DNA from: Acidovorax sp. A1169 | GTDB lineage: Bacteria; Pseudomonadota; Gammaproteobacteria; Burkholderiales; Burkholderiaceae_C | Assembly (NCBI RefSeq): GCF_030704685.1 | Contig: NZ_JAUZDX010000008.1 | Coordinates: forward strand, 1 to 64,000 | Reading direction: 5' to 3' | Length of the DNA stretch: 64,000 nucleotides | Shown: positions 27,073 through 56,993 of the stretch, piece after piece | Position numbering within the stretch: the stretch's first letter is position 1 | Layout: each line of letters opens with the position of its first letter | Notes under the pieces: generated by a model | What the model was told of the DNA's origin: nothing | The model's input: only the letters and a program-made list of their open reading frames with translations | The model's database searches: none | Translations under genes and position numbers: made by a program

Positions 27073-27094
27073 ACACTGGCCGCTCCAAAAAAGA

Positions 27095-27126: not shown

Positions 27127-27155
27127 TTGCATTCATAACAGTGGAGTCATTGACA

Positions 27156-27845: not shown

Positions 27846-27988
27846 CAAAAATGGCACCTACAGCGCCGAGCGTTGCGTGCCAGCGACAAGAACGGCAGGC
27901 AAGGGCCGCGACCAGGGGGTCTGGGGCGCGCCAAGGGCCGCCCGGGGCCGGGCTTGGAAATTGCTTCTAAAGGTATCTCATTACCTCC

Positions 27989-30658
<2,670 letters not shown>

Positions 30659-30677
30659 GGCCTGTGCCGCTTTATCC

Positions 30678-31466: not shown

Positions 31467-31506
31467 CGGTGCCGGCCCATAACAAATCTCAAATCAGGAG
31501 TGGATC

Positions 31507-32163: not shown

Positions 32164-32239
32164 CGGGCGCGCTGTGCCCCTTGCCTTGCTCGGCACCTTG
32201 TCCGCCAAGCGTCGGGCGCCTCCGAGCTGAGCCATTCTG

Positions 32240-34501: not shown

Positions 34502-34566
34502 CCGGCAGACGCAGACGAACAACAGACAGCCAGAAGAGACAGACGGAACAAACAGGACTGCATGAC

Positions 34567-35577: not shown

Positions 35578-36120
<543 letters not shown>

Positions 36121-36180: not shown

Positions 36181-36403
36181 AATGCACCATGGGTTTGCCG
36201 TCCTCAAGCTACCCGTCTAAAATTCGGTATTACTATCATCGGTGCAGCGGTGCATGGTACAAATGAGAATGCGAAACAAATGCAATGAAAACGAGTCGCT
36301 TGGGTTCGATAGGTGTATAAAGCATTTTTAATGTGAAATTGAACACCTCCTATCTGGGATGGAGGTAAGTTCCAATGATGGTAAATGACATAATATTTTG
36401 ACA

Positions 36404-37319: not shown

Positions 37320-37853
37320 ATGACGCACCGAAATCGCCCTGCCAAGGGGTTTACCCTTATTGAACTGATGATTGTCGTGGCAATTATCGGGGTTCTGGCC
37401 GCAATTGCTTTGCCCGCCTATCAGGACTATACGATTCGTGCGAAAGTGTCAGAGGGATTGGTTGCTGCTTCGGTTCCCAAAGAACTGCTGAGTGAAGCAT
37501 TCCAGGCCAATGGAATTGTCGGTATGGACGCCGCAGCCGCAGCCTACAATGCCACCCCCAATGTGGTGTTGAAAAGTAAATACATCAAGGGAATAAGCAT
37601 CGGCGCTGCAACTCCTTGGGCGATATCCATTTCCATCTTGGCAGATGGAAAAAATGGAATTCCGGCTGGCCTTGACGGGAACACAATCCTACTTTCCGCA
37701 AATGTCAACAACGCTGCTCCTGCAGGAACATCAGTAGGCCCGATGGACTGGGCATGCACGAGTGATAGTGGAAATGTGTCTTTGACCCGAGGCTTGACGA
37801 ACAGAACTCTGGGCACTTTACCCGCAAAATATGCTCCAGCTGAGTGCCGATAA
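37320..37853 (+). CDS. Type IV pilin (second copy)
   Basis: The 177-residue prepilin has the PilD site [19 protein letters not shown], Glu5 and a C-terminal disulphide loop ending APAECR. It has the same length as the first pilin and shares the [12 protein letters not shown]-like and GTLPAKYAP segments, but differs over much of the head. TAGGAG lies 5-10 bp before the ATG. It may be an alternative pilin subunit or a minor pilin expressed with the accessory gene. Confidence 0.93.
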
Positions 37854-41900: not shown

Positions 41901-41969
41901 GGCAAAGCCTGATAAAACAAAAATGGCCAACAACCAGCTTCGAGCGCCACGGGGGGAAGAAATCGTCAA
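38934..41969 (-). CDS. Large membrane protein fused to a spermidine-synthase-like domain
   Basis: The 1011-residue protein has about 13-14 membrane segments in residues 10-500, resembling the SpeE/MFS-type fusion family. A Rossmann methyltransferase/aminopropyltransferase-like domain lies at about 545-770: VGVIGFGSGMTTHTLLG, DTIEIEPAMVQGAR, SHIVIEDAKAFFS and YDLIISEPSNPWISGV. About 240 helical residues follow. Known relatives are annotated as spermidine synthase-like but their substrate is unclear. GC is well below the core genes and long noncoding stretches lie on both sides, consistent with acquired DNA. Confidence 0.85.
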   Translation of the reverse strand: MTISSPRGARSWLLAIFVLSGFAGLIYQSIWSHYLGLFLGHAAYAQALVLAIFMGGMAAGSAWIAHAGQRWRNLIRGYAVIEVVIGILGLLFHWIFGAVANFSYEWLIPSIGEPWAVNLARWVVATLLILPQTILLGMTFPLMSGGLIRRFPGTDGNLLGGLYFTNSIGAAFGALAAVFILLPWVGLPGAMVTAGLLNFAVAGLAWWLAREPEPIVPEPAAGTPLAERRLRHNPTLRLVLLGTALSGAASFIYEIVWIRMLSMAVGSTMHAFELMLAAFILGIALGGLWVRKHADSTSSPLRLVGWMQICMGIAALASLAVYANAFAWVGWLYSALAKTDGGYTLYNLGTATLSIFIMLPAAFFAGTTLPLFTVALLREGQGERAIGRVYAWNTLGAIVGVFAAIHLLIPSVGLKLTLCIAAIIDLGIGLVLLRLNADSKRAMTRFAFAAGISAIALIAAFRVPYDPLKLASGVFRHGRAIVDAEQQKVIFYRDGKTSSVAAIAGKDGNASIATNGKPDAAIAIREGNKPTPDEPTMTLLAAMPLTMLKNPERVGVIGFGSGMTTHTLLGDARVKQVDTIEIEPAMVQGARIFGDRVARAYTDPRSHIVIEDAKAFFSANPAKYDLIISEPSNPWISGVGSLFSKEFYNFIPRHLNDNGLFVQWIQLYEIDEQLVGSIFNAMTPHFEDYAAWLASSNDMLIIASPKGPLPKSEIARLLSTPGPLQSELARIGITTQEHLDFHKLADARLLRGFGQLYKDLGANSDYYPVLGLQAPRTRFKAITAETIGTLPSQETPLLEAMAVRSPLPSHILPSKLPHNAPDVLTWRARALAAELAGQDGSSVAPDIIPSRALAPAILLKAAASHACKLSWSPAASRQFSVRMREVANLTNAFLPSDILRSIWVRRDWLPCKNMPEDISRALNLLGTIAEKDWKPIIKSSSEWLNRPAQDGVIHGDYADLALSSLLLGFAHEQQWSDLQAAEAKFGSSTNSEPVYSFQRKLLQAVAKEHTK

Positions 41970-42246: not shown

Positions 42247-44229
42247 CTAAGTCCCCACACTCCGGGAGTCTCTTTCGGCTGCACTCTTGTGGGTGTCCCA
42301 GGCTTGATACAACCGGGTTTCGAGCGAGCGCGTCAGGGCCAAGCCTTGCTCAACAAGGGTCGTGTCCATACGGTTGCGAAGGGACTGGCGCACGCTATCG
42401 AGCAGTGCAAGTTGTTTGCTGAAGTGCACGGCTTTTGCAACATATTCCTCCCAACTGGTCGTCGCGAATTCCGAAAAGCCAAATCCCGCCAACATCGAAG
42501 TACCGGCGCGTTCCACCGGCAAGCTGCCTCCCAGTGTCACCATGGGAACGCCCATCCACAACGCATGCAGGCTTGTGGTACCGCCGTTGTAGGGAAAGGT
42601 GTCGAGAATCAGATCGATGCGGTGGTGCATCTGCAGATAGTCGCTGAAGGGAATGGGCTCCTGAAGCAACAGTCTTTCCGGATGGATGCCTCGGGCTTCA
42701 AATTCCCGGAGCATCTGGATCTGGGGCTCCGGCCTCAGCCCGGCCATCAACAAGCGCGATGCCGGCGCGCTGCGTAGGATCTCTGACCAGGCGTCAAGCG
42801 CCGCTGGCGTAATCTTGGCTGGATTGTTGACGCTTGCAAAGGTGAAGGGTAAACCGCTTAAGGCTGGCAATCGGTTGACGCTAGGGCTCTCCGCTGCGGG
42901 CTGGAAACTGGCCGCGCCATCGATGCGCAACAGTTTCTCCGAGTGGTACGCCTCCGACATCCCGGGTGGATCCATTGATGCATCGGTGATTCGATAGTCC
43001 ATACCATGCAGGCCGGTGGTAGCCTGATAGCCTAGCCAGGTCATCTGTATAGGCGCGGGTTTGTGCGCAAAGGCCAGCAGGCGGTTGTATCCCGTGTGTC
43101 CCGACAGATCGATCAGGATGTCAATTTCGTCCTCCAGAATCTGCTGTGCCAACGCTTGGTCCGTAAGGCCAGCACAGGGACGCCAGTGATCCACGAGGGC
43201 CTGAAACCGCAAGGTCACATCGTCGATCCCTGGGAAAGCGTGATAGCAGTACACCTCGACCCGTGTTCGGTCATGGTGGCGCAGGGTGGGCTCGATGAAA
43301 AAAGCCAGGGAGTGATAGCGGAAATCTCCTGAAACATAGCCGATGCGCAGGCGCTCGTGCTCCGCTGTCCTCTGGTGGGTGGGCCATTGCGGGCGCAAGG
43401 GTGCTTCGAAGCGCTCTGCAAATGCCAGATGTTCTTCAAACAGCTCCTGTCTGCTCAGCTTTCCCTGGTATTGCAAAGTCAGCAGAAGGTTGCTGTGCCA
43501 GGATGCTTTGTCGGGTTGCAGTGCAAGAGCTTTGCGCAGATCCGATACCGCGCCGTCCATCGCCCCCAACTTGCTCTTGGACGTGGAAAGATTGGCCAAG
43601 GCCGTTGCATGCTCTGGCTCGATACCCAGCGCACATTGAAAGCAGTCCACCGCTTCTTTGTAGGTGTGCTGTTCGGCAAACAAATTTCCCCGATAGAAAT
43701 GCAACTGGGCATTGTTCGGGAATCGTTTCGTTCCCTCGGCAAGTACTTGGTGCGCCACGTCAAAACGCCCGAGTCTGAAGAGCGCAGGGCCGAGATCTAT
43801 GTAGGCGTATTCAAAGGTTGGGTCGATCTCCAACGCTACCAGCATTTCGTTGACGACTTCCTCGTCATCTCCGCGTTGCTGGGCTATATTTCCCAGCATG
43901 AACCGGGCATCAACGTTGCGCGGCTGCAGGGCTACGGCCTGGCGGAGTGCGGCCTCTGCTTCGTCAAGAGATTGCATCTGCAGCAGGGCATAACCCAGCC
44001 CGATATACCCCGCGGCATGCTGGGGCGCCACCACCGTTGCTTGCCGGTAGCATGCAACGGCCTCGTTCAGCTGCCCGCTCTGCATCAAAGCATTGCCTTG
44101 CTTCTGCAGTTCCCGCGCGCGTTGTGCTGCTTCTACTTCTGCATCGTTGGGTGCAGGTGCAGGCTTTGCCGGAGCGGTTGCCTCCTGGGAGTTTGTCCCA
44201 AAGAACTTCTTAATGAATTTCATTACCAT
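42247..44229 (-). CDS. TPR-containing SPINDLY/OGT-like protein glycosyltransferase
   Basis: The 660-residue protein has about seven TPR repeats (residues 35-270) and a C-terminal GT41-type glycosyltransferase. Marks of the catalytic part are LRIGYVSGDFRYHSLAFF near 295, DLSGHTGYNRLLAFAHKPAP near 375, MTWLGYQATTGL and the DTFPYNGGTTSLHALWMGVP motif near 560. O-GlcNAc-transferase-like bacterial members modify flagellin or adhesins from nucleotide sugars. MVMKF allows an alternative start two codons later (44223). It ends the minus-strand glycan cluster and may transfer the sugar made by the genes upstream. Confidence 0.92.
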   Translation of the reverse strand: MVMKFIKKFFGTNSQEATAPAKPAPAPNDAEVEAAQRARELQKQGNALMQSGQLNEAVACYRQATVVAPQHAAGYIGLGYALLQMQSLDEAEAALRQAVALQPRNVDARFMLGNIAQQRGDDEEVVNEMLVALEIDPTFEYAYIDLGPALFRLGRFDVAHQVLAEGTKRFPNNAQLHFYRGNLFAEQHTYKEAVDCFQCALGIEPEHATALANLSTSKSKLGAMDGAVSDLRKALALQPDKASWHSNLLLTLQYQGKLSRQELFEEHLAFAERFEAPLRPQWPTHQRTAEHERLRIGYVSGDFRYHSLAFFIEPTLRHHDRTRVEVYCYHAFPGIDDVTLRFQALVDHWRPCAGLTDQALAQQILEDEIDILIDLSGHTGYNRLLAFAHKPAPIQMTWLGYQATTGLHGMDYRITDASMDPPGMSEAYHSEKLLRIDGAASFQPAAESPSVNRLPALSGLPFTFASVNNPAKITPAALDAWSEILRSAPASRLLMAGLRPEPQIQMLREFEARGIHPERLLLQEPIPFSDYLQMHHRIDLILDTFPYNGGTTSLHALWMGVPMVTLGGSLPVERAGTSMLAGFGFSEFATTSWEEYVAKAVHFSKQLALLDSVRQSLRNRMDTTLVEQGLALTRSLETRLYQAWDTHKSAAERDSRSVGT

Positions 44230-44241
44230 GTCAAAAGCCGT

Positions 44242-44544
44242 TCAGCATCGGTGGAGTATGTAAGTCGTCAACTGGTCGACGTAGTCCGGGTCGTACTTCT
44301 TTTCCAGCAGCATCCATTTGAAGACATTGCCCAGTTGCGCCTTGGTGTAGACGTTCAGCGTGTGGGTCTTGCGGAAGGCCAGCACCTGGCGTTCCAGTTG
44401 TCCCAGCATGGCTTGGTGAATCTTCGTGAGGCGCTTTTCACTGAGCACCTTGGCGGCGGTCGGTGTCCGTTCAATGACGATCTCGGCCAAGGACGAGCCG
44501 AAAATCTTGGCCTCCTTGGCGTCAAAGTACTTCAATAGTGGCAC
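44242..44544 (-). CDS. Small conserved-looking protein of unknown function
   Basis: The 100-residue protein is mostly helical with many Lys, Leu and Tyr and has no signal or membrane segment. It contains a KYFDAKEAKIFGSSLAEI start and a YVDQLTTYILH end. It lies 12 bp before the OGT-like gene and 21 bp after the FkbM gene on the same strand, so it is part of the glycan cluster. No family is recognised; a chaperone or helper role for the glycosyltransferase is only a guess from position. Confidence 0.7.
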   Translation of the reverse strand: MPLLKYFDAKEAKIFGSSLAEIVIERTPTAAKVLSEKRLTKIHQAMLGQLERQVLAFRKTHTLNVYTKAQLGNVFKWMLLEKKYDPDYVDQLTTYILHRC

Positions 44545-44565: not shown

Positions 44566-45741
44566 TCAAGCTGCCGCAGAGCCGGGCTCGACGCCCGATT
44601 CAGTGGAGGCGTAAAGAATAAGATCGTAGTAGTAGCTGCCGTTGTGCTGTCTGAGTCGATAGTTGTAATTGTCGACCGCTTGTTCGAGCTGCTCTACGAC
44701 ATCCAGCAGATCGTCCGCGTAGTGGTAAACGCAGGCGGCCACGCGGGGCCTGTTTTCCCGCAACAGCCGCGATGCTCCCTTCAATGCGTTCACCTCAAAG
44801 CCTTCAATGTCCATCTTCAGGAAGGTGAGCTTGTCGACTTCATCATCAAGCTTGATGGTCTCCACCTGAATATTGCCTTGATCGGATACATGGCTGGAAA
44901 TGCTGCCTGTCTCCATGAACCTCAAATGACCTGCTTGATGGGAAACCGCTTTGTTGACGCTGCGGAAATTGGCAAGAGGGACAGGCGAGACTTTCTGCAA
45001 CATCTCGAAGTTCGTGCGATCGGGTTCAAACGCCGTGATGCTTGCGTAGCGGTATTCCGTGGCGCCAAGAAACTTTGAAACGACTGGGCCCTGGAATGCC
45101 CCACAGTCGCAGTAGTGCTCGTTCTTCCCCAGCGTGAACGTGGAGGAGTGGGCGAAATTGGCAAAGTATTCGTCGCTGGGATTGGCCCACGTGGACAGCA
45201 TGGGGCTGCGATCATATGTAATGCGAAAAAGCAAATTGGCATACAGGGTTGCCCGGCTGTGGTGATCTGCAAAGCTCTCAGCCAGTCGCATGAGCTCATC
45301 CAGCCTCGCAAGGGTCTTGCTCCGGTACTCAGATACGGACTCATAGACCGAAATCAGTCCCAGCTGTGCCTGGGCAACGACGCAGTCTTGTTTTTCAATG
45401 CCTGCTTGTTGGCAAAGCACCGAGAACATGGCCCGAGCGCCATGACTCATCGAAAAATCCAGTGCGACAGCATTTTTGTAGCTCTTGGCATCGCGCAAAA
45501 ACCTTTCGCTGGTCCAGCGCGGAGCTCCGTGGATGGCCGCCTGGGAGGATTTGTCGTCAACCACCGCAACCAGTCCCTTGGCCGCTGCAGCGATGGCCGG
45601 GCCATGTACCAAGCCCAGGTGCGACTCGGGCGCGAGAAAAAACAGGGGTCTGCCTTCGAGCGAGTCGATACCAGGCGCATCCTCGTGCATAGCCGCATGA
45701 AGCAGGCGCGCTTTCAAGCGTTCCGAAAGTTCGAAGTACAT
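44566..45741 (-). CDS. FkbM-family methyltransferase
   Basis: The 391-residue protein has an unassigned N-terminal half (about 1-190) and a C-terminal FkbM SAM-dependent methyltransferase domain. The latter shows YCDCGAFQGPVVSKF near 209, ITAFEPDRTNFEML near 235, TIKLDDEVDKLTFLKMDIEG near 300 and EVNALKGASRLL. FkbM enzymes O-methylate sugars or polyketides, in keeping with a modified sugar made by this cluster. The ATG at 45741 is preferred to a TTG at 45756. Confidence 0.87.
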   Translation of the reverse strand: MYFELSERLKARLLHAAMHEDAPGIDSLEGRPLFFLAPESHLGLVHGPAIAAAAKGLVAVVDDKSSQAAIHGAPRWTSERFLRDAKSYKNAVALDFSMSHGARAMFSVLCQQAGIEKQDCVVAQAQLGLISVYESVSEYRSKTLARLDELMRLAESFADHHSRATLYANLLFRITYDRSPMLSTWANPSDEYFANFAHSSTFTLGKNEHYCDCGAFQGPVVSKFLGATEYRYASITAFEPDRTNFEMLQKVSPVPLANFRSVNKAVSHQAGHLRFMETGSISSHVSDQGNIQVETIKLDDEVDKLTFLKMDIEGFEVNALKGASRLLRENRPRVAACVYHYADDLLDVVEQLEQAVDNYNYRLRQHNGSYYYDLILYASTESGVEPGSAAA

Positions 45742-45769
45742 GCGGGGTTCCAGCAAGGAAAAAAATTGA

Positions 45770-46399
45770 CTAGATGCCGTTGTCGATCACGAACACGCCT
45801 GTCGGGAAGGCCGTGGTCACGAAGGTCTTGTCGGCAAGCGGTTTGAGCTGCATCCCCGGCCGGTCCAAAATGCACTGGCGGCCTATGGTCAGGCCTTCGC
45901 TGATCAGTACCCCGAGGCCGAGCGTTGCATTGTTGCCGATGCGTGCCGTGCTTCCGATCTGCACCCCATCAGCGATCCAGGTGGAAGAGCCGACCTGCGC
46001 ACCACTGCCAACGACGACTCCGTCACCGATGTGGCTGTTGAAACCGATCTTGCAGCCGTGGCTGATGACTGCCGCTGCCCCGATGGCGCAGTTTTCCCCT
46101 ATCGAGACACCGGGCGCAACCACCGCAGTGCGGCAGATCAGGGGGGGGAGTTTGAACCCGCGTGTCTTGAACTCGCCCATCAACTCCAGCCGCCTGAAAT
46201 TGAGGAATTGGGGTCCCCAGGCTACGAATGCAGTTGCGTCGGCGGGCGAGATGCCGTTCAACGCACTGAGGTCGAAGGTGTAGTTGCCATCCTGAACAAC
46301 GTCGAGTGGATGGAGCGTCTCCTCGGGTGCAGCCTCTGTCCATGCGGCCATCGCCCACTCCAGTAGCGCACCGGAGCCGATCACGTACTTAGAGGGCAT
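45770..46399 (-). CDS. PglD/NeuD-type left-handed beta-helix acyltransferase (copy A)
   Basis: The 209-residue protein has a short N-terminal Rossmann-like part (MPSKYVIGSGALLEWAM) and a C-terminal left-handed beta-helix of hexapeptide repeats (GVSIGENCAIGAAAVI, KIGFNSHIGDGVVV, TWIADGVQIGSTARIG). Such enzymes transfer acyl groups from CoA or ACP to an amino sugar. The start at 46399 overlaps the end of the upstream Rieske oxygenase gene by 11 bp. Together with two similar copies it alternates with two Rieske oxygenases. Confidence 0.87.
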   Translation of the reverse strand: MPSKYVIGSGALLEWAMAAWTEAAPEETLHPLDVVQDGNYTFDLSALNGISPADATAFVAWGPQFLNFRRLELMGEFKTRGFKLPPLICRTAVVAPGVSIGENCAIGAAAVISHGCKIGFNSHIGDGVVVGSGAQVGSSTWIADGVQIGSTARIGNNATLGLGVLISEGLTIGRQCILDRPGMQLKPLADKTFVTTAFPTGVFVIDNGI

Positions 46400-47540
46400 G
46401 TCGTCCGTCCATGACATCCATGTACCACCGCTCGATGGCCATGTTCGCGAACTCGAAATCCCCAAGATTCGCGCGGGGTGCGTCCAGTTGAAGCCCGGAC
46501 TGCACTTGCTCCATGATGTCGATGTCTTCGCGCAAAACACCTTCGGCCCCTTCAAGATGGGCCATCAAGACGGCGGCGGATGTTGGATAGCGGCGCTTCT
46601 TGCGGGCGGTGACGTAGTAGACCAGCAGATCTGTGCGTCCCGCAGAGATGGGCTGGTGATGCTCGATGATGAACGAGTACCCTCCCGATCCCGATGCGAT
46701 GTGCAGGTTGGGGAACAGTAGCCAATTGAGGTACCAGTCGTCCGTGCCGAACCGTTCCACGTTCTCGTGCCAGGAGAAGTGGGGCATCTTCACCAAGGGC
46801 TCGTTGAGGCCACCGCCGCTAAAGCTGCGCAGCCGTGCAAGATGCGCTTCCTCATCGAGGCTTCCCTGGGCATGGTAAGTCCTCGCGTCGGCAATGGCGG
46901 CTTCATCCATGTGCGCCTTGAACTTCACTTGCTGGTAGAGCGTGCGGGGGTGCACATACCGGGGGTGCAGGCTGTCACGCAGATTTTCGTAGGCAAGCTT
47001 CCAGTTGAAGCGGGTTTCGAGGCGCGCAATCAGCACTTCGTCGTCGAACTGCTCCGATGCAGCCCGCAGCATGTCGAGTGCTGCAGGCGAAAATTGCGCC
47101 TCGATGGGCATCGGCTTCTCGCTCAGGTTCACGAATACCAGGCTTCCGATGCGGGCCACAGCAAAGCGGCGCAGGCGCAGGCAATCGCGCTCTTGCGCAG
47201 GGAAGCGGTAAGCCTCGTCGTGGAAAGGGATGTTGTTCACATCCCCTTCGCTGGCATAGCCCCAGCCATGGTAACCGCAGACGAGCGGGCGCACCCCCTG
47301 GGGCTGTTGCTGGATCGGGTTCTGGCGATGCAGGCAGAGGTTGTCGAATGCCCGCAGTTCACCGTTGAAGTTCTGCACCACGACGTCGACGCCGCACACC
47401 TTGCGGCGCACGAACGCGTGGTGCTTGTTCAACAGCATCCCTGGCGCTACGAATTGCCACAGGGGGCGCATCAACAACTCGCGCTCGCGCCTGAACCAGC
47501 CCTCATCGGTGTAGGCCGCAGCCGGCATCAGAGATCTCAT
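46389..47540 (-). CDS. Rieske non-haem iron oxygenase, alpha subunit type (copy 1)
   Basis: The 383-residue protein has an N-terminal Rieske [2Fe-2S] domain with Cys69-x-His71 and Cys88-x-x-His91 (CLHRQ and CGYHGW). The catalytic domain has the mononuclear iron ligands Asp189, His192 and His197 in YENLRDSLHPRYVHP. Typical substrates of the family are aromatics, steroids, choline-like compounds or natural products. No ferredoxin or reductase gene is close. Its start directly follows the stop of the acyltransferase at 47541 (TGAATG). The second Rieske protein has its ligands at the same residue numbers. Confidence 0.9.
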   Translation of the reverse strand: MRSLMPAAAYTDEGWFRRERELLMRPLWQFVAPGMLLNKHHAFVRRKVCGVDVVVQNFNGELRAFDNLCLHRQNPIQQQPQGVRPLVCGYHGWGYASEGDVNNIPFHDEAYRFPAQERDCLRLRRFAVARIGSLVFVNLSEKPMPIEAQFSPAALDMLRAASEQFDDEVLIARLETRFNWKLAYENLRDSLHPRYVHPRTLYQQVKFKAHMDEAAIADARTYHAQGSLDEEAHLARLRSFSGGGLNEPLVKMPHFSWHENVERFGTDDWYLNWLLFPNLHIASGSGGYSFIIEHHQPISAGRTDLLVYYVTARKKRRYPTSAAVLMAHLEGAEGVLREDIDIMEQVQSGLQLDAPRANLGDFEFANMAIERWYMDVMDGRHAL

Positions 47541-48200
47541 TCAAGACTTTCGTTGAAAACTGTAGCCGGCACCGATGACATGCGCTGTGCTGCAGGGCAG
47601 CTCCGGCTCCAGGAAGCTGCCATCTGCAAGATCGCGGGTCCAGATGCCGCCGTGGTCGATGGTGCAATGGCGGCCGATCTGCACGCCTGCGCGCACATGC
47701 ACGTCGGCGCCGATGGCACTGTGCAGGCCGACCCGCGCACCAGCGCCGAGAGAAGCTCCTGGTCCCACCCAGCCATGTGCTGATATATGCGCTTTTTCAT
47801 CCAGGCGCACGCCTACATTCAGCAACACGTCGCTGTCGATTCGGCAGCCAGGGCTGATGCGCACACCGGGCCCCACCCAGACATTGTCAGCAAGCCGCGT
47901 GCCTGGTGCGACCCATGCAGTAGGGTGCACCAGTGTGGCCATCTTCAATCCGGCGAGTCGCGCGACTCCATACAGCTCAAGGCGTGCGTAATTCAGCGCC
48001 TGTGCATCCACCGCGATGAAGAGCCAGGTTTCCAGAGAAGAGAGCCCTGACAGCAGGGTGGACGCGGTCGATGCGAGCTGCGCTACACCCGCTGCCTTTC
48101 GGATTTCCCAATCTCCTTCAGCATATGCTTTGGGCTCTGCTGCGATGCAGTCGAATGCGCTGCCGCAGCCGACAAGACAATGGGCCAGCTCCTTGGTCAC
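47541..48200 (-). CDS. Left-handed beta-helix acyltransferase (copy B)
   Basis: The 219-residue protein has an altered Rossmann-like start (CLVGCGSAFDCIAAEP) and hexapeptide repeats from about 90 (VAPGTRLADNVWVGPGVRI, GPGASLGAGARVGLHSAIGA). The active-site His region is near RHCTIDHGGIW. It overlaps the upstream Rieske gene by 4 bp and touches the downstream one. The pairing acyltransferase-Rieske-acyltransferase-Rieske suggests duplication of a two-gene unit. Confidence 0.85.
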   Translation of the reverse strand: MTKELAHCLVGCGSAFDCIAAEPKAYAEGDWEIRKAAGVAQLASTASTLLSGLSSLETWLFIAVDAQALNYARLELYGVARLAGLKMATLVHPTAWVAPGTRLADNVWVGPGVRISPGCRIDSDVLLNVGVRLDEKAHISAHGWVGPGASLGAGARVGLHSAIGADVHVRAGVQIGRHCTIDHGGIWTRDLADGSFLEPELPCSTAHVIGAGYSFQRKS

Positions 48201-49345
48201 GCAGCGCTCTCCTGCCCCAGGAGGTCGAGATAGGCCTGCGCCGCTGACTGGAGCCGGTGTTCGTATTGCCCATGCTGCGCCCGGGGGGCACCCAGGTACA
48301 GGCGCGCCTGCAGCGCTTCCAGGTAGGCGATGTCCTCGTTCAGGACGGACGCCTCACCCTTGAGGTAGGTGCGCAGCAACGCAGGCAGGCCAGGCACGCG
48401 CCGCTTTTCCTTGGCAATCGTCAATGTCATACGCAATTGCGTCAGCCCCGGTGCCAAGGGTTCAAACTGCTGTGCGATGAAGGTCAGTCCGCCAGGGGAT
48501 ATGAAATTGACGTTAGGGAAGATCGAGAAGGTATAGAAACAATCCTGGCTGCCGTACCTTTGCACGGCATCGTGCCAGGGCCACGGATCGATGCGCATCG
48601 GCGCGCTCTGCAACAGGCTCTGCGCCAAAAGGCCTGACGCCGTGCTGTGTACTCCGGCTGGCGCCGCTGGCTCATCGCGGGGCACACGGTTCGGCTTCTC
48701 CTCCTGGGCCGTTCGACGCTCTCGGTCTCTCAAGAGGGGCTGGAAGCTCTTGGGATGGATGTAGGGGATGTGATTGGCATCCAGCACATTCTCGTAGTTG
48801 AGCTTCCAGTTGTAGCGGACGGGAATGTCCACATGAACGGACAGGGCGGCAAAATGTCCTGAAGCCTCGGCCAGTAAAGACAGAAAGTCGTCGGTGAACT
48901 GCGAGCCGATGGCCATGGGCGATGGCGCGAGATTGACGAACACCATATTGCCGACGATCTCCACCGCGTACCGTTTAAGGCACAGGGCCTCCCGCTCGGC
49001 CGGCGTGTAGGCATACAACGTGTCCTCATGCGGAATGGATTTGACCTTGCCATCATGGTCGAAGACCCAACCGTGGTATGGGCACACCATGCGCGCCTGG
49101 CCAAAGGGCTGCTGCTGAAGTGGCATCTGGCGATGCGGGCAGAGATTTTCGAAGGCGCGAATGTCTCCGTCGCAGTTCTGCAGCAGGACGGGCAAGCCCG
49201 CCATGGTCCGGGTGAGGAAGGCACCAGGCTCTGCAATGGAGGTGCGGAAACCAGCAAACAGCCACAGCCTGCGAAAAATGCGATCGCGCTCGAGATCGAA
49301 TATTCGCTGAGACAGGTAATGCTCAGATGTCAATTGGGACAGCAC
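48197..49345 (-). CDS. Rieske non-haem iron oxygenase, alpha subunit type (copy 2)
   Basis: The 382-residue protein has the Rieske cluster ligands Cys69/His71 (CPHRQ) and Cys88/His91 (CPYHGW) and the mononuclear iron ligands Asp189, His192, His197 in YENVLDANHIPYIHP. Ligand numbering is identical to copy 1, and both share NLC-HRQ-P-QQQP and KLxYEN segments, so they are paralogues. They differ in the C-terminal substrate-binding part. A 4-bp overlap couples it to acyltransferase B. Confidence 0.9.
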   Translation of the reverse strand: MLSQLTSEHYLSQRIFDLERDRIFRRLWLFAGFRTSIAEPGAFLTRTMAGLPVLLQNCDGDIRAFENLCPHRQMPLQQQPFGQARMVCPYHGWVFDHDGKVKSIPHEDTLYAYTPAEREALCLKRYAVEIVGNMVFVNLAPSPMAIGSQFTDDFLSLLAEASGHFAALSVHVDIPVRYNWKLNYENVLDANHIPYIHPKSFQPLLRDRERRTAQEEKPNRVPRDEPAAPAGVHSTASGLLAQSLLQSAPMRIDPWPWHDAVQRYGSQDCFYTFSIFPNVNFISPGGLTFIAQQFEPLAPGLTQLRMTLTIAKEKRRVPGLPALLRTYLKGEASVLNEDIAYLEALQARLYLGAPRAQHGQYEHRLQSAAQAYLDLLGQESAA

Positions 49346-49357
49346 CGGGACCTGCCG

Positions 49358-50005
49358 CTAGCGGAAATTGAAAGGCTTGGCAGGATTGCCCATAACGGTT
49401 GTCCGAGGCGGCACATGCCGTATCACGACACTACCGGCGCCCACCACGGCACCATCACCGATTTTGATCCCTGGCAGAATGGTAGCGTGTGGGTGGATCA
49501 CCACGTCGTTTCCGATTTGCGCTCCGCCCCCTATGAACACGAAGCTGCCGATCTGGCAGTAGTCCCCCACACACACGTCATAGCCGATGATGCTCGTGGA
49601 CAGGATCGTGACAAACTCGCCGATATGGACGTCGGTGCCCAGGGACACCTTGCGCTCGAAGATGCATCCTCGGGAAATATGGCAGCGCTCCCCAATGTGC
49701 ATTTCGGTTTGCAAGCTGATGAAATTGCCCCCCTGGGCGCACAGAGGCTCCGTGTAATGCCGTTTAGCCGCCGGGTCTCCCAATGCGCAAAGCAGGAGGT
49801 CTTGCGACGCTACCTGGTAGGTCATCGGGTCCCCGAGTATTGGAAGATCCGACGGCGTGGCTAGACCGGTCCGGTTGTCCAGGAAGCCCTTGACGTCCCA
49901 GTCCACGCCGCAGGCGACGTCCGATCGCGCCAGGCTGGCCACTGTACGCCCGAAGCCTCCTGCACCTATGATGACCAATTGCTGTCGAGCACGAGCTGTC
50001 TTCAT
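49358..50005 (-). CDS. PglD-type sugar O/N-acyltransferase (copy C)
   Basis: The 215-residue protein is the most complete of the three acyltransferases: Rossmann start LVIIGAGGFGRTVASLA near 10-26 and a left-handed beta-helix from about 95 (MHIGERCHISRGCIF, GTDVHIGEFVTI, AQIGNDVVIHPHATI), ending VVGAGSVVIRHVPPRTTVMG and GNPAK. This is the layout of PglD and of VioB-like acyltransferases that modify UDP- or dTDP-4-amino-6-deoxysugars. Its start overlaps the downstream end of the SDR gene by 4 bp. Confidence 0.92.
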   Translation of the reverse strand: MKTARARQQLVIIGAGGFGRTVASLARSDVACGVDWDVKGFLDNRTGLATPSDLPILGDPMTYQVASQDLLLCALGDPAAKRHYTEPLCAQGGNFISLQTEMHIGERCHISRGCIFERKVSLGTDVHIGEFVTILSTSIIGYDVCVGDYCQIGSFVFIGGGAQIGNDVVIHPHATILPGIKIGDGAVVGAGSVVIRHVPPRTTVMGNPAKPFNFR

Positions 50006-50763
50006 GTGTACTCCACGCCTCCATCAAGGCTGAAGACCGTTCCGGTCACCTTTTTGCTGGCGTCCGACAGGAAGAACAGGCAAGCCCAGGCAACGTCTTC
50101 CGTCTGCCCCACGTCCAGTGGATAGCGTTTGCGGATGGCATCGAACCAATCTGCGTCGATGGTGGTGAGGGGCGTCTGGACGATGCCTGGCGCCAGCGCA
50201 TTGGCACGGATGCCACGCTTTGACAGTTCCAGTGCCAATGGGCGCATGGTGCCAATCAAAGCTGCTTTCGATCCCGCGTAGGGACCGAGGCCAACTGTGC
50301 CTGTCAAGGCCGCTATGGACGAGAGGAAAAGGATGGAGCCACCTGCGCGGATGGCGGATCGGCTCAGCAACTGGCGCGTGAGAACCATGGGGGCGATATA
50401 GTTGGTCTCCATTACCTCGCGCAGAAAACCGTCTCCGACCATCTTCATCGGTGACAGGCCGCGGATGCCCGCACTGTGGACGACGCCATCGACGAGGCCG
50501 CAATCCACGACCAGTTGTCGTAGCGCGGACATGTCGGTCAAGTCAACTGGCAGGGCCTGGTGGCCAGTGCTAGCGAGCGAATCCACAACGGACTGTAGCC
50601 GCTGAGCATCCCGTCCCGTCAGCACCAGCTGAGCGCCAGCTTCCGCGCAACTGAGCGCCACGGCGCGCCCTATGCCCTGCGACGCACCGGTCACCAGGAT
50701 CCTCTTGCCTTCGAGTCCGTACAGGCCGCGGGCAGCTGCGGTGAATGGGTTGGAGGTGGTCAT
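50002..50763 (-). CDS. SDR-family 3-oxoacyl-ACP reductase-like oxidoreductase
   Basis: The 253-residue protein has the NAD(P)-binding TGASQGIG near 26-33, the catalytic Ser-Tyr-Lys set (LFLSSIAALTG and YAGSKAAL) and a FabG-like end SLDGGVEYT. In a cluster with an ACP and a FabH-like synthase it may reduce the 3-oxoacyl-ACP to a 3-hydroxyacyl chain. The ATG at 50763 overlaps the upstream SDR stop by 4 bp. The longer frame is not supported by homology. Confidence 0.91.
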   Translation of the reverse strand: MTTSNPFTAAARGLYGLEGKRILVTGASQGIGRAVALSCAEAGAQLVLTGRDAQRLQSVVDSLASTGHQALPVDLTDMSALRQLVVDCGLVDGVVHSAGIRGLSPMKMVGDGFLREVMETNYIAPMVLTRQLLSRSAIRAGGSILFLSSIAALTGTVGLGPYAGSKAALIGTMRPLALELSKRGIRANALAPGIVQTPLTTIDADWFDAIRKRYPLDVGQTEDVAWACLFFLSDASKKVTGTVFSLDGGVEYT

Positions 50764-51557
50764 GTTCGCATGGGGATGCCAAGGCCTCCGTCCACTGTCA
50801 GGGTCGTACGGGTGATCCAGCGGCTCGCATCGGACAAGAGGTAGCAGATGGACGAGGCGATATCGGCCGGGACAAGACGGCCCAGGGGGGTCAGGTCGAT
50901 CTTGTCGTCCATACCCGCCAGTGCCCCCAGGCCTTGCAGCATGGGGGTCTCCACATAGCCCGGTGCCACGCAATTGGAGCGAATGCGAAGTTTCGCCTGC
51001 TCGAGTGCCAAGGTGCGTGAGGCGGCTTCCAGTGCCGCCTTGGACGCTGCATAACCGGCGGCAGCCTGCGGTGCAGCGTTCGCGGACAGTGCCGTCACGT
51101 AGACAAGCGATGCTCCGTTGCGGATCCGCTTCTTGTAGAGCAACCGTTGCGTCAGCAGAATGGGCGCCAAGTAGTTGACGGACAGCATCTTTTCCAAATG
51201 CGCCTCATTAGCCATGCGCAAAGGGACAAGCGCGGCAATGCCCGCGCAGGAAGCAAGCCCGTCGTATCCAGGTGAGGCTTCCATCAGGGCCTCTCGTGTT
51301 TCCGCCCTCGAGAGATCGCCCGCAATGGCAGTGTGGTCCTTGCCGGCCAATGCAGCATGCACTGCCGACAGCCTGTCCTGATCGCGGCCATTGATCACCA
51401 GGCGTGCACCGAGTTGGGCGCATAGTTGGGCAGTCGCCGCACCGATGCCTGATGAGGCTCCGGTGACTAGAATGACCCGTCCCTCTAAGGAAAAGGCATC
51501 CGTTGAGGCAATAGGGCGATCGCGGGATGGCTTAGTCGAATCGATGGGCTGGCTCAT
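50760..51557 (-). CDS. SDR-family oxidoreductase (second copy)
   Basis: The 265-residue protein has TGASSGIGAATAQL near 34-47, the catalytic YAASKAALEAASR lysine and tyrosine, and an active-site Ser region ALSANAAPQAAAG that is altered: the usual SS before the catalytic turn reads VTALSAN, so the Ser is retained by one residue. The end shows TLTVDGGLG. It is the second of two adjacent SDRs and may act on a different acyl or sugar intermediate. ATGA overlap joins it to the FabH-like gene. Confidence 0.89.
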   Translation of the reverse strand: MSQPIDSTKPSRDRPIASTDAFSLEGRVILVTGASSGIGAATAQLCAQLGARLVINGRDQDRLSAVHAALAGKDHTAIAGDLSRAETREALMEASPGYDGLASCAGIAALVPLRMANEAHLEKMLSVNYLAPILLTQRLLYKKRIRNGASLVYVTALSANAAPQAAAGYAASKAALEAASRTLALEQAKLRIRSNCVAPGYVETPMLQGLGALAGMDDKIDLTPLGRLVPADIASSICYLLSDASRWITRTTLTVDGGLGIPMRT

Positions 51558-52591
51558 GAAATCAGCAGAGGAGGAAACTGCGCATCGGCAATGTCCAGTA
51601 TGCAGGTGCCCCACGACAGGCCTATGCCAAAGCCTGCGAGCGCCACCCGGTTCTTGCTGCTCCCTAGCGCTTCATGAATGCGCGCAGTCATCGTGACCGG
51701 AAGCGATGCCCCGCTGGTGTTGCCGAAGTCGTGCAAGGTGGAGGGGACTTTTTCCACCGGCAGACCGAGCTTCTTGCGGATTGTTTCGTTGATCATCCGG
51801 TTGGCTTGGTGGAAGATGAAGTAGTCCACGTTGTCGGGCGTCATGCCGGCATACTCGAGAACACTGCGGACGGATGGCGGCACCCGTTGCGTGGAAAAGC
51901 TTAAGACCGCTGGTCCATCAAGGATCAGGTCGGACGCCCAGTGGAGGAGACCATTCCCATCTCGCGTGGGAATGACATGGTTTGGACCGAACGGCTCGCG
52001 ATGGCCCCCCACTGGCAGCATGATGGCCTTGTGGCCGCTTCCATCGCTGTTCAGGTCGAAGTACATCGGTGCAGCATCGGGCGAAAACTCCAGTGCCGTG
52101 GCCGTTCCTGCATCGGAGAACAGAGGATCGTCGACCGTGGCGCAGCGGTCACCGACCAGGACGAGGCCCTTCTTGATTGCTCCGGATGCGATCATGCTCC
52201 CGAGGATGTGGAGCCCGAAAGGATACCCCGAACAACCCAGGTTGACATCGAATGCAATCGTGGCATGGGACAGCTTCAACCGATCCTGCAGGATGATGGC
52301 GGTCGCGGGGATCAAGTAGTCTGGTGACTGTGTCACGACTATCAGTGCATCGACCTCTTCGCGTTTCCAGTCCAGCGACTCAAGCAGTTTTTCTGTGGCC
52401 TCAAAGGCCAGATCCGAAAAGGTTTGCCAAGTGGGGCAGATGCGGCGCTGATGGATACCGATATTGCGCACCAATCGCTCGCGCTCGGAGCGCATCGAAG
52501 CAGGGCAGTCATCCAGGTTCGACAACACCCGCTTGGGGACGCAACTGGTCATGCCCGCAAAGCGGACGTTGTGGAGTGTGGAGAGGCCCAT
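51554..52591 (-). CDS. FabH-like 3-oxoacyl-ACP synthase III
   Basis: The 345-residue enzyme has the thiolase-fold triad of KAS III: Cys120 in NLGCSGYPFGL, His261 in FHQANRM and Asn291 in FGNTSGASLPV. KAS III enzymes condense a CoA-linked starter with malonyl-ACP. With the ACP encoded 6 bp upstream, a short acyl chain such as 3-oxobutanoyl could be made for attachment to an amino sugar, as in the viosamine systems of Pseudomonas. Confidence 0.93.
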   Translation of the reverse strand: MGLSTLHNVRFAGMTSCVPKRVLSNLDDCPASMRSERERLVRNIGIHQRRICPTWQTFSDLAFEATEKLLESLDWKREEVDALIVVTQSPDYLIPATAIILQDRLKLSHATIAFDVNLGCSGYPFGLHILGSMIASGAIKKGLVLVGDRCATVDDPLFSDAGTATALEFSPDAAPMYFDLNSDGSGHKAIMLPVGGHREPFGPNHVIPTRDGNGLLHWASDLILDGPAVLSFSTQRVPPSVRSVLEYAGMTPDNVDYFIFHQANRMINETIRKKLGLPVEKVPSTLHDFGNTSGASLPVTMTARIHEALGSSKNRVALAGFGIGLSWGTCILDIADAQFPPLLIS

Positions 52592-52597
52592 GGTGCT

Positions 52598-52822
52598 TCA
52601 GCCGAGCAGTTTGTACAGATCTGAGACCGTGGCGCAGTTCTTGAGGTCATCGCCCACGATAGTCTTGTTGTAGTCCACATCGAACATGACGATGATACCC
52701 AGCGCCGCCAGCGAGTCCCACTCCGGCAGGTCGCTCAACAAGGTCTCGGGCGTGATGTCGACGGGGACCTGGAAGTCTACGGCGATCAAGAAGTTTTCAA
52801 TGAATTGTTCAATGGTTGGCAT
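52598..52822 (-). CDS. Acyl carrier protein
   Basis: The 74-residue protein is acidic and has the phosphopantetheine serine at Ser37 in EWDSLAALGI, flanked by helices typical of ACPs. It differs from the primary AcpP (DSLDTVE is absent), so it is a dedicated carrier for this cluster. It lies between the aminotransferase and the FabH-like gene. Confidence 0.92.
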   Translation of the reverse strand: MPTIEQFIENFLIAVDFQVPVDITPETLLSDLPEWDSLAALGIIVMFDVDYNKTIVGDDLKNCATVSDLYKLLG

Positions 52823-52927
52823 GATTTCCCTCGTTATGTTGTGGCGCCACAGATAGGTTCTCTGGTGGCTCCGCTATCTTATTCCGTGACCCCTCTGTCA
52901 GCGCTCGGGCCTGAGAATCTTTCCATG

Positions 52928-54037
52928 TCATGGCTGTGCCGCGATGATGTGGACTATGCGCTCCACCTCGTCCGTCGTGAGCGCTGGATAGATGGGAAGA
53001 CACAACACTTTTTCTGCTGCATTGACCGCGCACGGAAGGTTGTCGAGTGCGGCAGAGGGTAGCTCCCTGTACATGGGAAAACTCGGAATGAGCGGATAAA
53101 AGTAGCGGCGGCCATGGATACCTTCATCCTTGAGCCTCTGGTAGAGCGCATCTCGGCACAACGCATATTCTGGGCCGACAAGGATCGGAAAGTATGCATA
53201 GTTCACCTGCACGTTCGGCGGACCGCGAAGACAGCGGATACCCCGAACAGACTCAAGCCCCGCGCGGTAGGCTGCATCGACCCGTTGGCGCTCAGACAAG
53301 GCCCGATCGATGTGCTGGAGCTGGAGCATCCCGAACGCGGCATTGACTTCGCTCATCTTGCCGTTGATGCCTGCAGCCACCACCGTGGTTTCATTCACGA
53401 ATCCGAAATTCTTCAGGTAGTCGATGTGCTGCTTGGTCTCGGCGTCGGGGCAGATGATGGCCCCGCCTTCAAAAGTGTTGAAGACCTTCGTGGCATGAAA
53501 GCTCACAACAGACAGGTCGCCGTGGCGCAAGATGCTACCGCCTGTGTCGCGCACGCCAAATGCATGCGCGGCATCGTAGATGACCTTGAGCCGGTGTTTA
53601 TCGGCGATCTTTTGAATGGCATCCACGTCGCAGGGATGACCATAGCAGTGAACAGGCATGATCGCCGAGGTGGACTCCGTAATGGCCGCTTCGATCTTGC
53701 CTGGATCGAGGTTGAGCGTGCCAGGATCGACATCAACGAAAACGGGGCGGATGCCATTCCAGAGAAGAGAGTGGGCAGTCGCGACAAAGGAATACGGGGT
53801 GGTGATGACCTCTCCCTGGACTCTCAACCCCTGGAGAGCTGTCATCAGCCCCAGCGTGCCATTGGAGAGCAATGCTAGATGCTTGACGCCAAGATACTTG
53901 CACAAGGCCTCTTCCAGTTGCTGATGGAAAGGGCCGCCATTGGTCAGTATCTTGTTGTCCCATATCTTTTGAAGATAGGGGATGAACTCTTCGATGGGCG
54001 GCAAAAGGGGTTGAGCAACGTAGATGCTTTTTGTCAT
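52928..54037 (-). CDS. DegT/DnrJ/EryC1/StrS nucleotide-sugar aminotransferase (VioA-like)
   Basis: The 369-residue PLP enzyme shows LLPPIEEFIPYLQKIWDNK at 11-29, TNGGPFHQQLE, the sugar aminotransferase NGTLGLMTAL turn and the PLP lysine Lys184 in SFHATKVFNTFEGG. The SFHATK-FNT-EGG form is characteristic of VioA/FdtB/QdtB-type enzymes acting on dTDP-keto-6-deoxysugars. It is the first gene of the minus-strand cluster. The long upstream in-frame extension has no homology, so the ATG at 54037 is used. No sugar nucleotidyltransferase or dehydratase gene is nearby; RmlA/RmlB products from elsewhere would be needed. Confidence 0.92.
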   Translation of the reverse strand: MTKSIYVAQPLLPPIEEFIPYLQKIWDNKILTNGGPFHQQLEEALCKYLGVKHLALLSNGTLGLMTALQGLRVQGEVITTPYSFVATAHSLLWNGIRPVFVDVDPGTLNLDPGKIEAAITESTSAIMPVHCYGHPCDVDAIQKIADKHRLKVIYDAAHAFGVRDTGGSILRHGDLSVVSFHATKVFNTFEGGAIICPDAETKQHIDYLKNFGFVNETTVVAAGINGKMSEVNAAFGMLQLQHIDRALSERQRVDAAYRAGLESVRGIRCLRGPPNVQVNYAYFPILVGPEYALCRDALYQRLKDEGIHGRRYFYPLIPSFPMYRELPSAALDNLPCAVNAAEKVLCLPIYPALTTDEVERIVHIIAAQP

Positions 54038-54931: not shown

Positions 54932-56794
54932 TCAGTGTTGCACTGCTGCAGGCCGTCTTAGCGCCAAGGGCGTTAGCAATATGCGGCATGCGGTCGAAGG
55001 TGCAGCAGCATCGAGCAATATATAGGTATAGGGATGGGATTGACTTTGCGTTAATACACACAAATTTTTCTTGAGTTCGGACGCGCTAGCGGGGTCTGTG
55101 GACTCAAACAAGATTTTGAATCTTACAGTTTGAGAATTGGAGTTGTCCAATTCAGCTTCCCTGATTATACTGGATGCGATCAGTCTCGATGGAAACCAGT
55201 TCGCCAACATAAGAACATTCCCAGGGCCCTCTGACATTATCGAGCCCGAAACCTGAAGGCGATTGCCATCAAGAACCATCTCAGGAGTGGGTCCTGTGTA
55301 TACGTCTGCCATTGGATGAGCCCCTGGCATGAGCATGCCCCTCTCGGCATGAAGTCTATTCAGCGCGGCATCACGCTCCGCTGGAGCAAGTGTCAGTAAA
55401 GGCTTGAAGCAGTGGCATTCTCGATCCCAGGCCTGTGCTACAGCGTGTTCTTCAGGCGTGCTGGGAATCGTGCGTAGAACTTCTAGCGGCTCTCCCTCCA
55501 CGTGGCCTTTTCGATGCAAGGCTTCACGGGCTGCATACGTGGCAAAGGTTAGATATACTGGGCTATTGAATTCTGCTGGTACCCAATACCTTACCCCTTC
55601 AGGGGGCTGAAGCAACATGCGGGAATGCGCGTCGAACATTGCCTCGCGCTGTTGATCGCCTTCGCGGAGGATCGTCGCTTGCCAAACCACAAAAATAACA
55701 AAAAACAGGCAGGCGATCCATTGCAGGCGCTGAAGACTTTTGCTCCAGGGCATAGCCCAAATCAGACACATGAGAAGCCAGGGTGCCCAGACGTAGCGTG
55801 CATGCAATTCCCAGGGGGGGTTGCTACTTGCTAGAAAAACTAGCGGCGTTAACGTAGCAATCAATGCTGCAGCGCAAACCATTAGCCGAACGTGAGTACC
55901 CGAAGCAAGGGTTCCCGCGAAAAATGCCAAAACAACGACGAAAAGAGGCGCTATGCTGCGCATGCCCTCCCCAAGCAAAGCACCCGGAATTGCGGCCATG
56001 CTTTGAAAAAGCCGGGCGGGCTCCCAACTACCACTCCCTCCGCCGTAATAGCCCCCAGCGTCGCCAAACAGCAGAAGGCGAGCGATCGTGTAGGCCAGCG
56101 CCACCAGCAAGACGGGGGCTGTACAAACCGCCACGTTTCGCGCGGAACGCATTAGCACCCACGAAACAACGAGCCACATCAAAACCCATGGAACATAAAT
56201 TTCCTTGCAGAGGCACGCCAAACCATAGAGCAGTGCGCCCGCGCAGCTTAGAATCAGTGTCTTGCCGCGAGAGGCTCCATAAGCTTTCACCCCACGGACT
56301 TGCATCAGCAGTCCGAGGCTTGCAAATACCAAACCATCCAGATAGTGCCCAACCATTAACTGCTGGGCCATCTGAAAAGTGGGCGCACCGATCAGCAACA
56401 AACCTGGAGCCAGCCATGCGCGGGATGCTGGAAGCCATTGCCTCAGGAGTGCATAAAGCGCTGCAGCGGCCGCCCAAAGCGATATGAGATGGTGGGCATA
56501 GTACAGCCGTGCGTCGGCACCGAAGAGCGCGCCGTTGACGTAGTAAAGGAACAGGTTCCAGGGTGCGAACTGGTTGCCTGATACCGACAGAAGGACTTCC
56601 GGGTCAAGGAATAGAGCGGTCCAGGAATACTGGGTGGTGTGCAGTAGATGCAGGCCGTCATCCCAGCGCCAGGAGCCCGACAGTGCGCTATGGTGAAGCG
56701 CAATGGTCAAAAGGGCCAGTGACGCGAGCGCGAAAAAATCGCTCCAGTAAGGCCAATCGCGTTTCACGTGCCTCCAATAAAAATTCGAAACCAT
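54932..56794 (-). CDS. Polytopic membrane protein, GT-C-glycosyltransferase-like
   Basis: The 620-residue protein has about 10-12 membrane segments to residue ~400 and a soluble C-terminal part of about 220 residues with a Cys-pair-like CHCFK near 475. After the first membrane segment comes SGSWRWDDGLHLLHTTQYSW, with a DD in the first outer loop as in GT-C lipid-linked-sugar glycosyltransferases. A role in transferring sugars at the outer face of the inner membrane is inferred. The ATG at 56794 (MVSNFYWRHVK) is chosen; 56848 is an alternative. Low GC fits the accessory region. Confidence 0.72.
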   Translation of the reverse strand: MVSNFYWRHVKRDWPYWSDFFALASLALLTIALHHSALSGSWRWDDGLHLLHTTQYSWTALFLDPEVLLSVSGNQFAPWNLFLYYVNGALFGADARLYYAHHLISLWAAAAALYALLRQWLPASRAWLAPGLLLIGAPTFQMAQQLMVGHYLDGLVFASLGLLMQVRGVKAYGASRGKTLILSCAGALLYGLACLCKEIYVPWVLMWLVVSWVLMRSARNVAVCTAPVLLVALAYTIARLLLFGDAGGYYGGGSGSWEPARLFQSMAAIPGALLGEGMRSIAPLFVVVLAFFAGTLASGTHVRLMVCAAALIATLTPLVFLASSNPPWELHARYVWAPWLLMCLIWAMPWSKSLQRLQWIACLFFVIFVVWQATILREGDQQREAMFDAHSRMLLQPPEGVRYWVPAEFNSPVYLTFATYAAREALHRKGHVEGEPLEVLRTIPSTPEEHAVAQAWDRECHCFKPLLTLAPAERDAALNRLHAERGMLMPGAHPMADVYTGPTPEMVLDGNRLQVSGSIMSEGPGNVLMLANWFPSRLIASSIIREAELDNSNSQTVRFKILFESTDPASASELKKNLCVLTQSQSHPYTYILLDAAAPSTACRILLTPLALRRPAAVQH

Positions 56795-56993
56795 TCGACA
56801 CACGAATGACAGCGTCCAGGGTGGGAGCCGGTGACAGAACCCCGGCATTCAGCGAGGGCGCCGGTCGGAAACGGACTTGCTTAGCCCCTTACGATTGTAA
56901 CTAGCGCGTTGCGCTGGGGATTGCTGCGGACGACGCAGAACTTGCACCCCGGGAGGGCGTCAATAGCCAGGATTTGCTGTAACGGCCATGGCT

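Follow-up and report, generated by a model that had tools for sequence, protein, structure and literature searches.

The window analysed here is a 64,000-nucleotide stretch of DNA from Acidovorax sp. A1169 (contig NZ_JAUZDX010000008.1, positions 1 to 64,000), and the subject of this report is a cassette of eleven minus-strand genes at 44566-54037, in which two Rieske oxygenase genes are each followed by a gene for a hexapeptide-repeat protein. Listing of the open reading frames (ORFs) and scans with Pfam and NCBIfam gave the same gene order and families as a preliminary description made from the letters of the DNA. Read in the direction of transcription, the cassette starts with a VioA-like DegT/DnrJ sugar 4-aminotransferase of 369 amino acids (aa) (52928-54037; PF01041, E = 2e-102; lysine motif SFHATK), followed by a 74-aa acyl carrier protein (ACP; 52598-52822; DSL motif, with a weak PF00550 match, E = 0.006, below the cut-off) and a FabH/VioS-like 3-oxoacyl-ACP synthase III (51554-52591; PF08541 and PF08545; Cys-His-Asn motifs; top solved relative 4efi, E = 7e-63). 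Two VioR-like ketoreductases of the short-chain dehydrogenase/reductase (SDR) type come next (SDR1, 50760-51557; SDR2, 50002-50763; both PF13561 with YxxxK), and then a VioB/NeuD-like hexapeptide N-acyltransferase, AT_C (49358-50005; TIGR03570 above cut-off; VioB chain 7txp, E = 4e-25), which has Tyr at the catalytic His position. The remaining genes encode Rieske oxygenase 2 (Rsk2, 48197-49345), its paired hexapeptide protein AT_B (47541-48200; PF00132; PerB chain 4eaa, E = 3.5e-13; Glu at the catalytic His position), Rieske oxygenase 1 (Rsk1, 46389-47540), its paired hexapeptide protein AT_A (45770-46399; PF00132; Ser at the catalytic His position; start overlapping Rsk1 by 11 nt) and an FkbM-family methyltransferase (44566-45756; PF05050; TIGR01444 above cut-off). 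Both Rieske proteins match PF00355 and PF00848 and have their metal ligands. Several neighbouring genes overlap by 4-11 nt (for example 48197-49345 with 47541-48200), and motif reading found the catalytic motifs of VioA, FabH, ACP, SDR1, SDR2, Rsk1 and Rsk2 all intact.

The preliminary description had likened the aminotransferase, ACP, FabH, SDR and acyltransferase core to the viosamine islands of Pseudomonas, and this likeness held: the core matches vioA, acp, vioS, vioR and vioB of the Pseudomonas syringae pv. tabaci island (vioA, acp, vioS, vioR, vioB, vioM and vioT), which shares with the cassette an aminotransferase, an ACP, a FabH-like synthase, a ketoreductase and an N-acyltransferase and is reported to make N-(3-hydroxybutyryl)-2-O-methyl-viosamine for flagellin (PMC3927599). 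That island differs in that the seven-gene table given for it holds neither Rieske nor paired hexapeptide genes, its methyltransferase is another one, the 1173-aa VioT is its transferase, and its product goes on flagellin (PMC3927599). The ORFs scanned between 38.9 and 56.8 kb of the window included no VioT-type large glycosyltransferase; large family 2 glycosyltransferase (GT2) proteins occur in relatives (1171 aa in L084 and 1184 aa in L099). The Rml pathway had been proposed as the source of the precursor, in agreement with an RmlB gene, above its model cut-off, that we found elsewhere in the genome on contig C3. The view that Rieske oxygenases are not part of known systems, and that a Rieske gene is foreign to viosamine-type islands, had to be given up. 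XCV2007, annotated 'Rieske 2Fe-2S', is listed in a Xanthomonas flagellar locus beside an acetyltransferase, two SDRs, a 3-oxoacyl-ACP synthase, an ACP and an aminotransferase, and XCV2006-XCV2013 have these gene types in one run, as does the window, at a flagellar and not a pilin location (PMC3826837). These genes are probably part of the gigX island of X. oryzae, where gigX1-10 are described as flagellin glycosylation-related genes (PMC8657755). Furthermore, Pseudomonas-family genomes (L006, L084 and L085) carry a Rieske gene in similar runs, as do Lysobacterales genomes: in seven Xanthomonas-like loci (L092, L094, L096, L098, L099, L100 and L101), these high-GC loci being described from a hit-based gene listing, a similar run contains one Rieske gene in six cases and two in L099.

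Rsk1 and Rsk2 conform to the motif of Rieske non-haem iron oxygenases, with CxH...CxxH cluster ligands, a His-His-Asp iron site and a bridging Asp. The residues C69, H71, C88, H91, H192, H197 and D338 were invariant in 17 of 17 rows of one alignment (A1) and again in a 30-row alignment (A3), where the bridging Asp (D189) was present in at least 90%. Since both proteins have complete ligand sets, two oxidations are expected. The nearest NCBIfam models, glycine betaine monooxygenase and aromatic dioxygenases, would suit catabolic genes of aromatic or betaine type that hitchhike in the island, and these models score far below their cut-offs. In a tree rooted arbitrarily on a long control branch, the 30 paired Rieske proteins included and that of L044 formed one separate clade with a support of 1.0, and the position of the Rieske genes inside sugar cassettes is constant. 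No ferredoxin, reductase or beta-subunit family was found among the cassette proteins scanned, the rest of the genome not having been searched for an electron-transfer partner. No aromatic-degradation module, which the preliminary description had given as the sign of such an origin, was noticed in the flanks that we read, not all of which were scanned with family models. The catabolic reading was rejected on the model scores and the separate clade, and we regard it as very improbable.

A hexapeptide-repeat gene directly follows 34 of 43 Rieske ORFs related to Rsk1 or Rsk2, usually with a small overlap; 31 of the 34 were read directly and three (L094, L096 and L098) were taken from coordinates, their ORFs extending far upstream. 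The same arrangement was seen for 0 of 26 unrelated control Rieske ORFs, of which 22 could be judged from an ORF lying within range downstream, and the highest hexapeptide motif count downstream of a control was 4, compared with 6-14 for the paired proteins. Closely related genomes (L091/L093/L097 and L092/L094/L098) are not independent in these counts. Three loci were left unscored: L074 (contig end), L043 (same locus as L005) and L007, a broken remnant in Candidatus Burkholderia verschuerenii (L007:2340-4091) with Rsk2 in two pieces and an AT_B-like hexapeptide ORF after the second. At L044, an FkbM gene stands between the Rieske and the hexapeptide gene. At one contig edge (L088:2-1303), an Rsk2-related Rieske gene (37%) has no hexapeptide gene after it, and the same genome also has two pairs (L087).

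The members of the pairs have also diverged together. Distances among the Rieske proteins and among their partners were strongly correlated (r = 0.93; 30 of the 34 pairs, with L049, L093, L097 and L098 dropped; 0/2000 permutations), and when partners were swapped within the nine two-pair loci, the observed pairing ranked 2 of 512, the best arrangement differing only in L087. L088, L078 and L074 were in neither the co-divergence test nor the Rieske tree. Because the distances co-vary, the cognate arrangement ranks near the best and the paired Rieske proteins form one clade, the pairs have largely been duplicated and moved together. Furthermore, four Lysobacterales loci (L091, L093, L095 and L097), from 4 of the 10 matching genomes in the order around L020, contain the Rsk1-AT_A pair without the rest of the cassette, at 77% and about 55% identity to the window. 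In these genomes, VioA, ACP or FabH, SDR, AT_C and the other Rieske are encoded at a second locus 1.0-1.4 Mb away; the neighbours of the stand-alone pair were read in L091 and L095.

When a profile of 31 partners was compared with solved chains, it matched sugar acyltransferases, the best being the pilin glycosylation protein 4m98 and PerB, and the Asn and Arg of the N-terminal domain were present in 34 of 34 partners, aligned with the N..R of solved family members. The hexapeptide fold, the N..R motif and these best matches would also suit genuine acyltransferases that use a different or a substrate-assisted mechanism (reportedly that of QdtC) to acylate the position made by the preceding Rieske hydroxylation, and the order of one oxygenase and one transferase fits such a 'hydroxylate, then acylate' scheme. 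At the position occupied in VioB, PerB and 4m98 by a His that we take to be catalytic, however, His was found in 4 of the 34 partners, the others having Ser, Glu, Ala, Gln, Arg and more, and no alignment column had His in more than 16 of the 34; this set includes AT_A of L044, one gene further on, and omits L049. Both AT_A and AT_B score below the TIGR03570 cut-off, and the PglD_N domain was undetected in either by Pfam scan. AT_C, which scores as NeuD family, also lacks the His here, a point in favour of genuine acyltransferases; a single acyl-making set for three hexapeptide proteins speaks against them, and all told we consider this alternative rather unlikely. Thus, of the three acyltransferases named in the preliminary description, AT_C keeps that assignment in spite of its Tyr, and AT_A and AT_B, with the catalytic His missing, are probably not ordinary acyltransferases. 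Among AT_C homologues, 19 of 25 have the His and 6 of 25 a Tyr (the window and five relatives); the activity of AT_C (49358-50005) is uncertain given this Tyr.

The order ACP-FabH-SDR1-SDR2-AT_C-Rsk2-AT_B-Rsk1-AT_A recurs in six other genomes (L001 Variovorax, L002 Paracidovorax, L003 Xenophilus, L004 Methylomonas, L005 Acidovorax and L008, a Rhizobiales bacterium), and the gene run is therefore not a product of chance. Shorter versions occur in L006 (P. fluorescens), L009 (Zoogloeaceae), L044 and others, and when species-representative genomes were scanned with Rsk2, 26 loci were obtained. Syntenic homologues of the ACP in L001-L006, L008 and L009 are 51-85% identical, and the identity of VioA is 75% in L001, where the gene has the corresponding place, 72% in L003, where it lies on the other strand, and 62% in L006. 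The cassette is rare. Searches with Rsk1 found it in at least 3 of 399 genomes of the family, and elsewhere in at least 2 of 369 in the class, at least 3 of 298 in the P. fluorescens family, at least 5 of 398 in the phylum and at least 10 of 250 in the order around L020 (Lysobacterales); each tally counts the centre genome where it matches, and all are lower bounds, since scoring was limited to no more than the top 4 to 7 candidates of a genome at thresholds of 1e-60 to 1e-40. A further locus of the order around L020 (L102:3669-11005) has two FabH-like genes and genes resembling those for VioA, ACP and AT_C. It also has two distant Rieske genes, with no hexapeptide gene directly after either, and an adjoining 760-aa membrane protein without Pfam match.

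In the window, the cassette adjoins a pilin-TfpZ-pilin group, which places its glycan genes at a pilin gene. The plus-strand genes of this group encode type IV pilin A (35587-36120; PF00114, E = 2e-15), a TfpX/TfpZ-family pilin accessory protein (36398-37219; NF041437, E = 2e-51, 174.8 bits, below its 200-bit cut-off) and type IV pilin B (37320-37853; PF00114, E = 6e-10). Downstream of the FkbM gene and on the same minus strand lie orf100, a 100-aa ORF without Pfam or NCBIfam match (44242-44544), then a candidate sugar transferase with tetratricopeptide repeats (TPR) and a glycosyltransferase family 41 (GT41) domain of SPINDLY/OGT type (42247-44229; PF13844, E = 7e-48), and then a 1011-aa protein in which membrane and spermidine-synthase-like parts are fused (38934-41969; PF01564) and which is possibly co-transcribed. 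Upstream of vioA, also on the minus strand, is a gene for a 638-aa multi-pass membrane protein (54932-56848) with several hydrophobic segments and no Pfam or NCBIfam match; a guess from its sequence is that it is possibly a glycosyltransferase of GT-C type. Homology of this protein to the 760-aa membrane protein of L102 was considered and dropped, as no significant match was obtained. Among the window proteins scanned with Pfam and NCBIfam, no TfpO, PilO or PglL was recognised. Pseudomonas pilin glycosylation loci of the TfpO or TfpW type likewise have glycosylation genes beside a pilin gene with a TfpX/TfpZ-type accessory gene; the window differs from them in that a pathway for an acylated amino sugar is encoded at the locus itself, together with Rieske oxygenases and a GT41.

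The cassette was probably acquired horizontally. The GC content of 1-kb windows is 49-63% from 35 to 57 kb and 62-73% outside, and a search of the window for tRNA genes found none. In the left flank are recA, sucC, sucD and a CHASE2-cyclase gene; the stretch 24948-35358, with sucC, sucD, the CHASE2-cyclase gene and a metallo-beta-lactamase-fold gene, is the block that precedes the pilin genes and is kept in most of the examined congeners. The M48 protease gene to the right of the cassette was found in 13 of 21 genomes searched, its own included (12 congeners), and the cassette was present at the expected site in 0 of the 10 M48-bearing congener loci that were examined; at one of the congener loci, L134, only TfpZ and M48 were recognised. 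In the closest congener (L125), about 75 bases separate pilin-TfpZ-pilin from the orf329 and M48 genes that follow, an interval that is about 19 kb longer in the window. The outer flanking proteins of L125 are 91-99% identical to those of the window, and its pilins, TfpZ and orf329 only 33-65%. The spermidine-synthase-like gene (38934-41969) has a counterpart of 61-62% identity at the same place in the cassette-less congeners L128 and L129.

Flagellin adjoins the cassette in L002, L004, L005, L044 and L084, and PilY1 and pilin adjoin it in L001 and L003 (both by Pfam), the window being the third pilus-linked case. As the flagellin-linked and pilus-linked loci show, one kind of sugar cassette can lie beside the genes of either of two filament types. 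The flagellin-linked cassettes, together with a GT41 gene beside the genome's own fliC (L046), would fit a sugar made for flagellin, lipopolysaccharide (LPS) or some other glycan, the pilin location being incidental. The genome's own flagellins, however, are on contigs C16 and C29, not beside the cassette; three stretches of about 20 kb around them contain no cassette, and the fliC stretch on C16 (L046:230-8133) has its own 736-aa GT41 and several methyltransferases, a gene content that suggests a separate flagellin glycosylation in this genome. Furthermore, a profile search of the ORFs of all loci compared found orf100 only in the window (and its copy L111), L001 and L003, next to GT41, with one copy in its own genome. 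The GT41 of the window is 43-44% identical to those of L001 and L003, so that orf100 and its GT41 type occur together at exactly three pilus-linked loci, and seven further GT41 genes at other loci are without orf100. These distributions and the position of the cassette inside a pilin locus make an incidental location unlikely in our judgement. A flagellin setting applies to many relatives and not to this locus, where type IV pilins are the nearest filament genes, and flagellin as the target in this genome is disfavoured. Separately, orf100 may be an adaptor for glycosylation of pilin or of another pilus protein.

We propose that the cassette at the pilin locus makes a nucleoside-diphosphate (NDP)-4-acylamino sugar for pilin that is oxidised by units of a Rieske oxygenase and a pseudo-acyltransferase, a reading to which we give about an even chance and in which the reaction chemistry, the Rieske-partner complex and the pilin target are all inferred. 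The RmlB of the genome, whose gene was found, would supply dTDP-4-keto-6-deoxyglucose, and VioA, judging from its family and motifs, would aminate C4 to give dTDP-viosamine. By likeness to the P. syringae viosamine island, ACP, FabH and the SDRs would make a 3-oxo- or 3-hydroxyacyl-ACP from which AT_C would N-acylate the sugar. Each Rieske oxygenase would then work with its own downstream pseudo-acyltransferase. As this partner keeps the N..R motif and repeat fold of sugar-nucleotide enzymes and has lost the transferase base, the catalytic His, it may bind the NDP-sugar and present it to the Rieske iron site, and the outcome would be two successive oxidations of the acyl chain or the sugar. 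FkbM would O-methylate the product, and GT41 with orf100, or the 638-aa membrane protein, would place it on pilin. A known system with similar features is the CMP-Neu5Ac hydroxylase CMAH, also a Rieske protein, which acts on a nucleotide sugar by hydroxylating its N-acyl group; we know of no hexapeptide partner for CMAH. CMAH was not among the solved chains matching the Rieske profile at E <= 1e-10, and whether a CMAH structure exists was not checked. More tentatively, and as a possibility about which we remain doubtful, the pairs may constitute a class of two-protein oxygenases in which a trimeric, His-less hexapeptide protein (a left-handed beta-helix), formerly a sugar N-acyltransferase, loads a nucleotide sugar onto a trimeric Rieske oxygenase by symmetric docking, tandem duplicated pairs oxidise one sugar successively, and flagellin loci and type IV pilin loci exchange the cassette. 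The trimer-on-trimer arrangement is a guess from the known symmetries of the Rieske and hexapeptide families.

Several observations weigh against the proposal that the cassette makes an oxidised sugar for pilin. In L004, L008 and L044 the aminotransferase has only 28-29% identity to that of the window, and the examined stretches of L002 and L005 showed no close VioA; different cassettes may therefore make different sugars. Given the contrast at L125 between similar flanks and diverged pilin genes, the event may have been an exchange of the entire pilin segment and not a clean insertion of the cassette. Many relatives have the cassette at flagellin. Glycosylation by a GT41 would take place in the cytoplasm before the pilin is exported, an order of events that is unusual for pilins. 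Nine related Rieske genes are unpaired (the third Rieske in L004, those in L010, L044, L078, L088, L089 and L090, and two in L102). With regard to the partners, loss of the His alone does not prove lost transferase activity, because AT_C itself has a Tyr, and the hexapeptide repeats align in ambiguous register, so that the catalytic residue could be a different one. In L049 the partner has retained the catalytic His; it follows a more distant Rieske, and the loss of the His therefore belongs to the main clade. The core of the argument is the link between Rieske and partner, and the variable VioA and the diverged pilins of L125 soften it only slightly.

A Rieske gene in such an island is already known as annotation (PMC3826837). 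Our literature searches on Rieske with flagellin, pilin, glycan or sugar, mostly at the level of listings, returned no functional account of the Rieske genes of such islands and no mention of the paired hexapeptide genes. As far as these searches show, it is new that Rieske and hexapeptide genes are paired and have co-diverged, that the partners lack the His, that pairs can stand alone and that such a cassette lies in a pilin locus. The empty pilin loci of the congeners and the stand-alone pairs offer clean genetic comparisons. Plants recognise a peptide of flagellin, and glycosylation is believed to keep this peptide from being released (PMC8364246), so that a glycan-changing module would be testable in a plant-recognition setting. 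If true, the proposal would add an enzyme partnership, between a Rieske oxygenase and a repurposed acyltransferase, to the chemistry of bacterial surface sugars, and would predict oxidised acyl-amino sugars on the pili or flagella of plant-associated and environmental bacteria.

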